Shown here: piece after piece, positions 3,857-14,823 of the stretch
How the letters are laid out: the number at the start of each line of letters is the position of its first letter
Position numbering within the stretch: position 1 is the stretch's first letter
Assembly (NCBI GenBank): GCA_014055495.1
Contig: WIAG01000008.1
Coordinates: forward strand, 1 to 64,000
Length of the DNA: 64,000 bases
DNA from: Nitrospira sp. CR1.2
GTDB taxonomy: Bacteria > Nitrospirota > Nitrospiria > Nitrospirales > Nitrospiraceae
Direction of reading: 5' to 3'
Made by a program: the position numbers and the translations under genes
Notes under the pieces: generated by a model
Told to the model about the DNA's origin: nothing
What the model saw: only the letters and a program-made list of their open reading frames with translations
Database searches by the model: none

Positions 3857-6800
3857 TTACTTCTTTCCGGCGCAGGTCTCATACACAGGCTGCGGATGCG
3901 ACAAGGCGTCCCATCGCAGCATCTGGAGGGCATCGTCTACGTAGGCCGGTGAACGCATGCCGACAAGCACCGAGGTCACACCGGCAGTACTGCGTAGCAC
4001 CCACAAGCATTTTTGCGACAAGGTCGCCGCGCGCCGCGCCTCCGGAAGCAGGGGATTGAGGGTGCGATGCAAGTCCTCGGTACGCAGACGGCTGCGCTCC
4101 GCCGCTTCCCGTTGCAGACTTCTCAAGAGCGCGAGCAGTTCGGGCACATAGCGATCCCGCCAGGATTCCCATTGCTCCGCCACGGTGCCGGTGAACGCCT
4201 CCGCCAGCGCCCGCAGCACTTGGTTCACGTGCGGCGCGATCATGTGCTGTTCGATCTGTTCCCAATGCTCCAGTCCCTGGATCTGCGTCCGGATCCGGTT
4301 CAGTTCATCGGCCCATCGAAAGAAGTCACTCGGTACCATGCCCTGTCCACTGTGCGCCACCGCCGGCGCGAGACGCGTACGATACTCCTCTTCAAGCGTC
4401 GCAACTTTCTGGCGCTGTTCGTCGAAGGTTGCTTCTACTGCCGGCACCGACACATCGGCCAACCGGACGACTCCGCCGCGCTGAGCCGGCATCGCGTTCA
4501 AGGGGCGATTCACCAAGACGGCAATGCCTGCCCGCATCGCTTCCTCCAGCAATGTTCTGCCGTTGCCGGGGCCGGTGTTGGCGACCAGCGCCGCGCCGGA
4601 TTCGTAGAGATTCATCGGACACTGCAGGACGGTGAAATGATGCGACGAGATGCCGGCCTTGTGTGCAGCCAGGGTCGCCGCATCGATCATGCGGGACAGC
4701 GATGTCGCGCCTGGCTCGTCCGCTCCCGCGGTGGAGGTATTCGAGGAGACGCCGTAGCCACGCAGGCGACCGGCTTGGACTTGCCCTTCGAGATACTCGA
4801 ACGCCCGCTGCAACCGCCGATAGAATTCGACACGGAGTTCAGGCAGCGGACGCGATTCATTCCCGCCGAGCTTTGCGGCATGGGAGAGAAAGTATTCCGG
4901 ATTGTGCAGCAGGCAGACATCCAGCGTGGCCAGCCCCAACCGATCCAGCGACAATGTCAGTTGATCGGCAAGAAAGTCCGGATGGATGCAATGCCAGATG
5001 TCGTCGCCGTATTTCACCATCTCGGGATAGGGCTTTCCGGATTTCTCCCGCGCCTGCGCCTGCGTCAGATTCTGCCCCTGGACGTAGCCGATCTTCGACA
5101 CCACAACCACTGCTTCCCGGGCGAGGTCTCCGGCGCGGATCAACCCCTGCAAGACCGATCCGACCAGTTGCTCACTCTCTCCATCCATGTAGTTCGTGGA
5201 CGTGTCGATCAGATTGCAGCCAGAACGAATCGCCTTGATCAGCGCTTCACGCTGTTCCGCTTCGCGCAGGCCCACACGATAGGTGCCGAACCCCAGCCGG
5301 CTGACCGTCAGGCCCGTCGCACCGAACGGGCCGAATCCATGGGCCAAGGAGCCGGGGCCGGATGCCGCATGGATGTGTCGCGCGGCATAGGTTGCGGTGC
5401 CCTGGGCCGTGGCATGTCCTGGTTGCAACGAACCACTCAAGACCTTCTGGGCTGAGGTCGCCGCAGCGACTGGTTGCTGAGGATCGAGCAACGCAGGAAG
5501 TTCCGCCGGATCGGTGATCGGCCGACGGCAGGAGAAGTTCCGGCAGACATACAATGCCGGCTGACCGTCGACCAGGGTTTTGCCCTGCAGCAAGGGATGC
5601 GCGGCCGGAGCATCCGGGATGACCTGATGGGCCAGCACACGATTGGGGACGTAGATCCGATTCACGGCGGCGCGCAAGACCTGGGTGCCCGCCGCATCGG
5701 CCGCCCCCACGACGGCGATCTCCGCGGGGCCGTTGGTGAGTAAATCCACGACGATCAGGCTTTTGGCGAACGCTCGGGGATACCGCGCGATCTGTCGGCC
5801 GTAGGCCCGAACGGCGGCTGCGGCAGCTTGACGAAAGTCCTCCCGCGCGAAATGAAAGGACAGGCGCGCCAGCACGGAGGCGGCGACGGCATTCCCGCTC
5901 GGGGTGGCGCCATCCGGTCCTTCACGGCTGCGCAGAATCAACGCTTCATGCCCGATTGCCGTGGTGAAGAAACCTCCCTGTTGCTCGTCGGCGAAGTCGG
6001 CGAGGATGTACTCGGCCAGGCGGACCGCCGCAAGCAGGTACCGCTCCTGGCCGCCTGCTTCGTAGGTCTCGATCAGGCCTTCGGCAAAATAGGCGTAGTC
6101 TTCGAGGTAGGCGTCCAGGTGGGCGGTGCCCGCGCGGTAGGTCCGCAGGAGTCGGCCGTCCGGCTTGGAGAGCCTGGTCAACAAGAAATCGCAGGCCCGT
6201 TGCGCCGCCTCGCGATATCGTGCCACGTCGAATACTCGGCCTGCTTCCGCCATGGCCCTGATCATCATGCCGTTCCAGGCCGTGATGACCTTGTCATCGA
6301 GCCCGGGAGGGGTGCGGCGCCCGCGCGCGGCATAGAGTTTCGGTTTGGCCTGCTCGATCGTCTGCCGCAGTTCATCAGCGGACAATCCCAGGTCCTTCGC
6401 GACCGTCTCCAGGCTGTGTGCGGTATGGAGCACATTCGTGTGTTCCCAATTGCCGGCAGCGGAGACGTCATAGTAAGCGCAGACCCGGCGCGCCGCCTCG
6501 TCGTCCTGGAGGACGGCTCGCACGTCGTCCGGCGTCCACACGAAAAACTTTCCTTCGACCCCTTCGGAATCGGCGTCGGTGGCGGAATAGAAGCCCCCTT
6601 CGGACGAGGTCATTTCCTTGAGAATGTAGTCGAGCGTCTCGCAGGCCACCCGGCGATAGTGCTCGTGTCCCGTGACCTGGTAGGCCTCGACATAGACATG
6701 CGCCAGCAGCGCGTTGTCGTAGAGCATCTTTTCGAAATGCGGCACCAGCCAACGGTCATCGGTGGAATACCGGGCAAAGCCGCCGCCGATGTGATCGTAA

Positions 6801-7549
6801 ATCCCGCCGGCCGCCATCGCGTCGAGCGTGGTCCGCACCATGGTGAGCGTATGAGGATCTTTCGTGCGGTGATAACAACGGAGCAGCAGCGAGAGGCCCG
6901 TCGCCGGCGGAAATTTCGGTGCGCCGCCGAAGCCGCCGAGTGTGGCATCAAAATCTTCGGCAAACTGAGTCACGGCAAGATCGAGCTCGGCTTCGCCGAC
7001 CGTCGTCGGGGAGGGCGCCGTGATGCCGTCCCGCAACCGCGCGGTCAGATTCGCGGCCTGTGCCACCACACCGTCGCGATCCTTCTCCCAGTATTCGGCG
7101 AGTTTCTTCAGGAGGGTCGGGAACCCCGGTCGGCCATACCGGTCCGACGGAGGAAAGTAGGTGCCTGCGAAAAAGGGGGTTTGATCGGGCGTCAGGAACA
7201 CGGTCATGGGCCATCCGCCCTGATTCCGGTTCAACGCCAGCGTCGCCTGCATGTAGATTTCGTCCAGGTCCGGCCGTTCCTCACGGTCGACCTTGATGCA
7301 GACGAAATGACGGTTCATGAGCGCCGCCGTCGCCTCGTTCTCAAACGATTCCCGCTCCATGACATGGCACCAGTGGCAGGAGGAGTAGCCGATGGAGAGG
7401 AGGATGGGCCGGTTGAGTGTCGCCGCCTGCGCCAGGGCCTCCGGTCCCCAGGGATACCACTCCACCGGGTTGTACGCATGCTGGAGGAGATAGGGACTGG
7501 TTTCGTGAATGAGACGATTGGGGGCGCGAGACGTCGTGTGATCGGTCAT
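3857..7549 (-). CDS. Fusion of YyaL/DUF255 thioredoxin-like protein with an aldo/keto reductase
   Basis: A single uninterrupted 1230-aa frame. Residues 1-160 are the DUF255 thioredoxin fold with C58-H-W-C61 and [12 protein letters not shown]. Residues about 180-690 are the (alpha/alpha)6-barrel of the YyaL/SSP411 (spermatogenesis-associated 20) family, with [10 protein letters not shown] and [10 protein letters not shown]. After a Ser/Ala/Gly-rich linker, residues from about 737 form an aldo/keto reductase starting [15 protein letters not shown]. The AKR tetrad is visible: Asp and Tyr in LIDTSTNY, Lys in VVSKIGY, His in CLLHNPEYF. YyaL proteins normally end near 650-700 residues and AKRs near 300, so this is a genuine two-protein fusion or a lost intervening stop. 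The substrate is unknown. ATG start without a strong Shine-Dalgarno. Confidence 0.9.
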
Positions 7550-7623: not shown

Positions 7624-7667
7624 AAAAAAAATTGGCCCGCGCCGGCATCCGGAGTCGCGGGCCAATT
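7624..7667 (-). terminator. Rho-independent terminator of the repeat-protein gene
   Basis: Perfect 12-bp stem AATTGGCCCGCG / CGCGGGCCAATT (7630-7641 with 7656-7667) and a 14-nt loop. Read on the minus strand it is followed by a run of T (A7624-7630 on the plus strand). It lies about 30 bp past the stop of the 74-residue protein. Confidence 0.9.
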
Positions 7668-7697: not shown

Positions 7698-7922
7698 TCA
7701 GTGGCCGCCCTTCTTCTCGTCTTTCTTCTTGTCGTCGCCGAACACGGTCTGGGAGAGGTGACCACCCTTCTTTTCGTCCTTCTTCTTGTCGTCACCGAAG
7801 ACCGTCTGGGAGAAGTGGCCGCCCTTCTTCTCGTCCTTCTTCTTATCATCGCCCGCGAATGACGGAGCGGTGAACGCAACGAGAATGGCCGCCGCTACGA
7901 ATGCAAACAGTGCACGCTTCAT
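7698..7922 (-). CDS. Small secreted Lys/Asp-rich tandem-repeat protein, unknown function
   Basis: 74 residues: a signal peptide (about 1-23, ending APSFA) then a mature part made only of repeats of GDDKKKDEKKGGHxSQTVF. There are two full 19-residue units and a third truncated after GGH. The mature chain is highly charged, carries regularly spaced Gly-Gly-His and has no Cys. It is probably periplasmic or released and intrinsically disordered; metal, polyanion or surface binding are guesses only. The start is backed by AAGGAGG and the gene has its own strong terminator, so it is a real, probably well-expressed monocistronic unit. I do not recognise a named family. Confidence 0.8.
   Translation of the reverse strand: MKRALFAFVAAAILVAFTAPSFAGDDKKKDEKKGGHFSQTVFGDDKKKDEKKGGHLSQTVFGDDKKKDEKKGGH
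7701..7860 (-). repeat. 57-nt in-gene tandem repeat (2.8 units)
   Basis: Units at 7701-7757 and 7758-7814 and a partial unit from 7815 encode the 19-residue repeats of the small secreted protein. Differences between units fall mostly at third codon positions, so the amino-acid repeat appears to be maintained by selection. Confidence 0.85.
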
Positions 7923-8175
7923 GGGAACCCCCTCCTTGAAAGTTGAGAATTAAGTGCCCACCACAAGGGCGGGGCGAGGGTAGCCAACCTGTCGGAAAAA
8001 GTCAATGCACGTCTTTGGGCCTGTCCAGCCACTGTAGAAATGTCCGGTTCATGGCTTGGCCTCGCGGGGCCGGGCAGGGAGAAGCGCTCGCAACGCCGAT
8101 CTATCCCCGGTCCTGTTCCTCGGCCCGGCTGTGGTACACTCTTCACAAGCGCCGCACCTCATCGGGTCAACGAGC

Positions 8176-14568: not shown

Positions 14569-14823
14569 TCACCTCGTTGTGGCCTCGGAGTGGGAATCGG
14601 ACCGAACATCACGCCCAGTTTGCGGGGAACGCCCGGATTGCGTGGACGAGGGATCGGCTGCTGGGCCTCCGTGACTCAGCGCGCTGCGGCCGACCCGCTG
14701 CGAACCCGGCGAAAACGTCGAGCCTCTTTGCTCGGTGGGCCGTTCGCCGCTGCCCACCCACAGGGCTGCCGCACCGGCGCCCAACAGCCCGAGTCCCACC
14801 AAGTTGCGCGCCAACCTCGTCAC
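14569..14823 (-). CDS. Small membrane-anchored hypothetical protein
   Basis: 84 residues. One short hydrophobic helix near the N-terminus (about 7-23, LVGLGLLGAGAAALWVG) is followed by a low-complexity Ser/Gly/Arg-rich tail. GTG start with GAGGTGAG upstream. Its best support is tight coupling (3 nt) to the secreted protein downstream and a candidate promoter further upstream (TTGAAT, 17 bp, CATACT on the minus strand). The low-complexity tail leaves open a spurious frame. Confidence 0.4.
   Translation of the reverse strand: MTRLARNLVGLGLLGAGAAALWVGSGERPTEQRGSTFSPGSQRVGRSALSHGGPAADPSSTQSGRSPQTGRDVRSDSHSEATTR

Follow-up and report, generated by a model that had tools for sequence, protein, structure and literature searches.

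The repeat protein gene and its transcription unit

At positions 7698..7922 of the window (the entire 64,000-nucleotide stretch of Nitrospira DNA analysed here), the minus strand carries a gene of 74 codons plus a stop for a small repeat protein that is predicted to be exported. Members of the same family are found in 28 of the 29 genomes of the genus, the sole miss being a MAG that is 66% complete. The predicted signal peptide (7854..7922, minus strand), MKRALFAFVAAAILVAFTAPSFA, is 23 residues long, and we read in it an n-region, a hydrophobic core, and an A-x-A-type cleavage site, with the cut predicted after SFA. It is followed by a mature part of 51 residues (7701..7853, minus strand) made of three units and two joints in the order GDDKKKDEKKGGH-FSQTVF-GDDKKKDEKKGGH-LSQTVF-GDDKKKDEKKGGH, which leaves no mature residue outside the repeat.

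The repeat has a period of 19, with 31 of 32 positions in the mature part equal to the residue 19 positions further on (maximum of 14 in 20,000 shuffles), and Tandem Repeats Finder reports a 57-bp array of 2.5 copies with 86% matches. At the DNA level there are 9 differences in 57 bases between units 1 and 2, 5 in 39 between units 2 and 3, and 3 in 39 between units 1 and 3; the three comparisons yield a single amino-acid change, between units 1 and 2, and every other change is silent. The preliminary description of a small exported protein consisting of repeats alone, with mainly silent differences between its DNA units, thus agrees with the analysis, export being predicted from the signal peptide. 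In the AlphaFold model (mean pLDDT 56.1), a helix spans residues 2-18 of the signal peptide and no confident structure appears outside it; the mature part is predicted to be disordered. The window holds one further tandem array and no others, at 14611-14646, with a period of 18 and two copies.

A Shine-Dalgarno sequence, AAGGAGG (7931..7937, minus strand), lies 8 nt before the ATG and is conserved in upstream sequences of the genus (g1). About 30 bases past the stop codon, a GC-rich hairpin and T run (7624..7667, minus strand; -29.5 kcal/mol, z -3.4) form a putative Rho-independent terminator, and the same hairpin occurs in the five g1 downstream sequences shown. A simple terminator scan returned no entry for the 7624..7667 hairpin, presumably because its stem contains a bulge. 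The ribosome binding site of its own and the strong terminator that had been ascribed to the gene are therefore both present. With a sigma70-like pattern, TTGACT-N17-TACCCT, further upstream (7977..8005, minus strand), these signals make the window gene look like a single-gene transcription unit.

Two loci with matched mature parts

The preliminary description had reserved the case of a gene with neither homologues nor a transcript; because homologues occur in related genomes, that case does not arise. Within the taxonomic family, which comprises Nitrospira and its kin, 152 of 175 genomes have a match at E <= 0.01, these and all later genome counts covering related species and the p-values ignoring that relatedness. 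In a survey of the phylum with a hand-made consensus query (E 0.001), 99 of 395 genomes match, all from the same taxonomic family; the 285 genomes outside it gave no match, nor did 11 further members of it. The organisms of 27 loci are Nitrospira or Nitrospiraceae MAGs (one record is titled Nitrosospira) and Candidatus Nitrospira defluvii FP929003.1.

Searches of Pfam, NCBIfam, PDB sequences, and plasmids returned no relative of the repeat protein. Among known structures the only match was EssD (E 0.065), leaving no sequence relative with a solved structure, and residues 1-40 scored 13.7 bits against the WGxxGxxG family (NF041742), below its curated cut-off of 35. The literature searched for this family contained no description of it, several searches giving largely unrelated papers. 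Judged by these matches, the family is unnamed and conserved across the lineage.

The genome to which the window belongs (G000) contains a second copy on another contig (C15:8432-8653). The two whole proteins are 86% identical; their signal peptides differ, and their mature parts are identical residue for residue. We sorted the neighbours of 87 family loci by similarity, naming neighbouring genes by reading their sequences without a family search, and found an A-type neighbour at 26 loci, a B-type neighbour at 55, both at none, and neither at six. At locus A, to which the window gene belongs, a malic enzyme gene lies divergently upstream and a 1230-aa thioredoxin-domain/aldo-keto reductase gene downstream. 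At locus B, a mug-type DNA glycosylase gene lies divergently upstream, and NUDIX, gcvT, and FKBP genes lie convergently downstream. The 1230-aa protein of the window (3857-7549, minus strand) combines a thioredoxin/YyaL-like part with an aldo-keto reductase part, and a relative of it adjoins 26 of the 87 loci, all of them A.

Since both gene orders recur in several genera, the A/B pair seems to be older than the genera. Within the genus, G001, G004, G006, and G024, three of them single-contig genomes, show the B copy alone, which makes A appear the more dispensable copy. We reject an assembly artefact as the source of the second copy, since some single-contig genomes, G008 and G023 (Ca. N. defluvii FP929003.1) among them, contain both. 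Contigs of the MAGs G002, G026, and G009 stop inside or at family genes (L047, L048, L060, L061), probably because near-identical copies break short-read assembly.

Repeat number had been expected to vary between strains, and in the genus it hardly does: three units are found in 20 of 22 complete copies with an A-type signal peptide and in all 28 complete copies with a B-type one. The A-type exceptions are G015, with two units, and G011, with two and a scar; G001, G006, and G016 have an altered last unit in their B copy. In other genera the number ranges from two to four. Given this near-constancy within the genus, we reject contingency-type variation of repeat number.

We compared the two copies across the 20 genomes of the genus in which both are full length, having dropped single-copy genomes, copies cut by contig ends (G002, G026), and genomes with a shortened A copy (G015, G011). 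In this set, A and B share 62.5% of their DNA in the signal peptide and 92.6% in the mature part. Pairing A with B of the same genome gave higher mature-part identity than random pairing, a value that no permutation out of 10,000 reached; for the signal peptide, within-genome pairing was no better than random (p 0.98). The result for the mature part extends to 39 genomes of five genera, a set that includes G015, where none of 5,000 within-genus permutations reached the within-genome A-B identity of the mature DNA. A-B identities within and between genomes were 91.1 versus 88.8% in g1, 85.9 versus 82.9% in g6, and 84.3 versus 75.9% in g30, and the order was reversed in g2 (81.5 versus 82.9%, two genomes only). 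In this wider set, own-genome pairs also stand out in the signal peptide (p 0.008 at the DNA level, 0.0008 at the protein level), because the signal peptides of A and B are alike outside g1 as well.

From these patterns we infer gene conversion between the copies, and its confinement, in this genus, to the mature-coding part is supported by the comparison. Strong protein constraint and codon bias could instead account for the likeness of the mature parts with no conversion at all: the protein is nearly fixed, lysine is encoded almost exclusively by AAG, and the within-genome excess is reversed in the two genomes of g2. Identical codons in A and B are barely more frequent within genomes of the genus (83.4%) than between them (81.3%), and because this synonymous excess is small, some of the likeness is attributable to constraint and codon bias. 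As the full explanation we consider them improbable, since they leave unexplained why own-genome pairs surpass random pairs in the mature part and, in this genus, not in the signal peptide. Rare forms common to both copies also speak for conversion: GEGKKKDEKK occurs in both copies of G003 and of G020, and KKPKEEKK in both copies of G102, each in no other sequence of the set. Finally, the mature DNA of A is closer to B of its own genome than to any A from another genus in 32 of 39 genomes, although the pair seemingly predates the genera; for the signal peptide this holds in 4 of 39.

The arrangement recalls tufA and tufB of enteric bacteria, an unlinked gene pair homogenised by gene conversion, in that two unlinked copies of one product would be kept alike in the same way. 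It differs in that, in this genus, the mature-coding part alone is matched, the signal peptides and promoters are distinct, and the product is small and exported. Conversion between A and B would make the pair a candidate natural case of bacterial gene conversion that seemingly respects a domain border, and the maintenance of matched mature parts by two genes suggests that the product matters to the cell.

Promoter patterns of the two loci and the relation to nxrA

The two loci carry different promoter-like sequences. All 39 A loci examined have TTGAC-N17-19-TAnnnT, the pattern to which the window promoter belongs, 82-104 nt upstream of the start codon, and GGCA-N6-TTGC is missing upstream of all 39; genus members whose neighbours had not been read were assigned to these A loci by signal peptide alone. 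The situation is the opposite at locus B, where GGCA-N6-TTGC (GG-N10-GC) lies 67-83 nt before the start codon in 50 of 50 testable loci and the sigma70-like pattern is absent from all 50; at least 100 nt of upstream DNA was required, for which three of 53 B loci were too short. Both patterns were drawn up after the sequences had been viewed. As background, the window contains 11 sigma70-like sites and two sigma54-like ones in 128 kb of sequence, with 2.7 of the latter expected from shuffles, and a consensus promoter scan requiring 9 of 12 matches found no promoter before the window gene. The sigma54 consensus is GG-N10-GC at -24/-12, with GGCA and TTGC, and the pattern at all 50 testable B loci is sigma54-like by this criterion.

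Four extra copies listed from other genera (the L077 pair, L079, and L080) have the sigma54-like pattern in three cases and lack it in one, in L077. This locus (G085:C56:131636-132181) is a tandem pair of family copies away from loci A and B, with the near-consensus sigma54-type promoter TGGCACTACCCTTGCT before one copy and none before the other.

Near the predicted 5′ end of the window message, a possible hairpin, GCCC-N7-GGGC (7956..7970, minus strand), was noted in leader folding; it is weak in this genus and stronger in several genomes of other genera. The mean folding z is -1.04 over 39 A leaders and +0.06 over 37 B leaders. The hairpin sequence varies between genera, while many A leaders of g6, g30, and g2 retain the pairing. 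The result is not family-wide, being suggestive for A leaders of other genera and not for the B leaders of the genus.

Farther upstream of locus B, about 160-190 nt before the start codon, is a conserved element with inverted half-sites, GAGGCGGTTTAGT-N-ATTCTGCCACAG, found at G000:C15:8239-8275 (L182) and at one site each in G023, G008, G018, and G082. This element may serve B as an activator site, or it may belong to the divergent mug gene. It occurs once per genome in five of five genomes, which gives no indication of a regulon under a general activator.

We read up to 450 nt upstream of nine nxrA (nitrite oxidoreductase) genes, two in G000, two in G023, and five in G082. GGCA-N6-TTG[CT], a pattern widened to its final C or T after a first look, occurs in six of the nine regions, with 0.01 expected in each: one has TTGC as at locus B, five have TTGT, and three have neither, among them the nxrA copy 13 kb from locus B in N. 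moscoviensis. According to PMC6606698, the nxrAB paralogues are presumed to be under different sigma54-dependent regulators.

The family gene also lies near nxrA in many genomes. Outside the genus, among the matches listed, the start-to-start distance is 12.2-23.8 kb in 29 of 69 genomes (35 kb allowed, 2.5 genomes expected); the two genes are farther apart on one contig in six of 69 and never on one contig in 34 of 69. Within the genus, likewise among the matches listed, a family gene lies near nxrA in none of 20 genomes. For 11 of the 29 linked genomes we read the neighbours of the linked gene, and these fit locus B, in G158 only partly. In the three genomes read across the interval, some ten or more apparently unrelated genes separate the family gene from nxrA, so that the linkage reflects conserved gene order and not an operon. 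By presence, 124 genomes have both the family and nxrA, 28 the family only, 13 nxrA only, and 10 neither (Fisher p 0.012, a test that ignores relatedness and gaps in MAGs and for which three genomes were placed by elimination). G034, counted as nxrA-only, has a weak family match (E 0.018). Family and nxrA presence are thus loosely associated.

Composition and proposed role of the product

Nitrospira rank among the main oxidisers of nitrite, and some of them oxidise ammonia completely; parts of their most expressed inventory are without known function. For a missing part of the nitrite-oxidising periplasm, this family is a concrete candidate, put forward on sequence evidence: its conservation across the lineage, the two copies with matched mature parts, the split between sigma70- and sigma54-like promoters, and the proximity to nxr in many genomes. 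Members of the lineage often appear to encode this small, very hydrophilic, exported protein in two separate genes.

Composition was assessed in 82 distinct sequences whose signal peptide is complete (L047 ends at a contig edge). Their mature parts contain no Cys, no Trp, and practically no Arg; Lys makes up 32%, Gly 17%, and charged residues 58%. Hydrophilins are defined by Gly above 6% and a hydrophilicity index above 1, and all 82 mature parts pass both thresholds (mean Hopp-Woods value for the second), the window protein with 18% Gly and a Hopp-Woods mean of 1.32. The absence of a lipobox Cys from the 82 mature parts, and a Pfam LPAM_1 score of 12.5 against a cut-off of 20, lead us to reject a lipoprotein. 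With a net charge of 0 to +5 (mean +2.8), the mature part is a near-balanced polyampholyte and not a polycation. The earlier suggestion that the protein binds polyanions is weakened by this balance, and we reject such binding as its main role.

The product would be an abundant, disordered, very hydrophilic protein in the periplasm or at the cell surface of nitrite-oxidising Nitrospira and their relatives. Locus A would provide a basal supply from its sigma70-type promoter, and locus B an added, regulated supply from a sigma54-type promoter of which looser forms may also precede several nxrA genes. Conversion limited, in this genus, to the mature-coding part would keep a single product from both sources, leaving signal peptides, leaders, and promoters separate. 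Its most likely job would be that of a periplasmic hydrophilin whose short charged segments are held by GG and by brief hydrophobic joints, and which shields periplasmic enzymes such as NXR and loosely binds divalent metals through the His after each GG. Taken whole, from paired genes with two promoter types to an abundant, conversion-matched hydrophilin-like export, this account has in our judgement an even chance of being right. The sequences themselves establish the gene structure, the family, the two loci, the promoter patterns, the matched mature parts, the composition, and the disorder prediction; conversion as the cause, high abundance, cellular location, the tie to nitrite oxidation, and a shielding or metal role are proposals built on them. 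High Gly, very high hydrophilicity, predicted disorder, and a repeat build are also features of hydrophilins and LEA-like proteins, from which the family differs in being exported and in having a conserved GGH and aromatic joints; searches of Pfam and NCBIfam gave no match to a known hydrophilin.

Metal binding through GGH, raised in the preliminary description, is possible, and the protein could be a metal-binding protein proper in which each KKGGH unit forms a Cu, Ni, Zn, or Fe site that stores or buffers metal for periplasmic enzymes. Two features favour this: GGH is regularly spaced, and 139 of 153 internal units retain the His that follows GG. We nevertheless think it unlikely, as Cys is absent, each unit offers roughly one His, 13 of the 153 internal units carry Lys or Tyr in place of His, and four of the 82 sequences lack His entirely although they look complete. 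Moreover, strong Cu/Ni binding by GGH requires a free N-terminus, and the neighbouring genes that were read include none recognisable as a metal gene.

A matrix or surface protein is a further alternative, in which the charged stretches and the hydrophobic or aromatic joints (FSQTVF, HVVVYG) self-assemble or tie polysaccharide or DNA in Nitrospira microcolonies. Most joints are indeed short and beta-prone with an aromatic residue (LSQTVF, FSQTLF, VVF, VLVY), and the protein is predicted to be exported and probably abundant. We regard this role as decidedly unlikely, given that the neighbours read include no recognisable curli-type nucleator or export gene and that the net charge, noted above, averages only +2.8; the model contains no strands, although a low-depth model is a poor guide to repeats of this kind.

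A Gly-Gly-His N-terminus is the classic copper- and nickel-binding sequence (ATCUN, Xaa-Xaa-His), and the protein could in principle be a precursor from which a periplasmic protease, cutting after the Lys-Lys of each unit, frees peptides that start with Gly-Gly-His. The family has Gly-Gly-His in common with ATCUN copper peptides but places it internally or at the C-terminus, so that only cleavage after Lys-Lys would create an ATCUN site; the predicted mature N-terminus is GDD, with no His at position 3. We consider this very improbable. Were it true, the sigma54-type copy would release copper-binding peptides at the onset of nitrite oxidation, and nitrifiers would have a peptide-type metal carrier whose synthesis needs no peptide-modifying enzyme.

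The abundance assumed for the hydrophilin-like protein is consistent with codon usage, Lys being AAG in 29 of the 30 codons of the two mature parts, whose repeat units are not independent, and in 362 of 632 in the window genes. We relied on raw codon counts because the codon adaptation index is unreliable here (the reference contig has three ORFs, one of them probably spurious). A family member is also probably among the top transcripts of N. moscoviensis, which we take to be represented by G082 on the basis of its five nxrA copies and ferritin positions. This genome has a third type of family member, and NITMOv2_2496 is somewhat more probably this gene than another, an identity that comes from gene counting only: gene calls anchored on the ferritin NITMOv2_2541 give it number 2498, linear interpolation between ferritin anchors gives about 2482, and the next small exported protein found by eye is number 2494. 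The putative third-type member is not an orthologue of the window gene, and in the genus of the window the search matched A and B copies only. By eye, the 200 nt upstream of the third-type member (L169, before 2324290 of G082, minus strand) contain no GGCA-N6-TTGC; a long inverted repeat, TGGACAAAT ... ATTTGTCCA, lies upstream of the gene.
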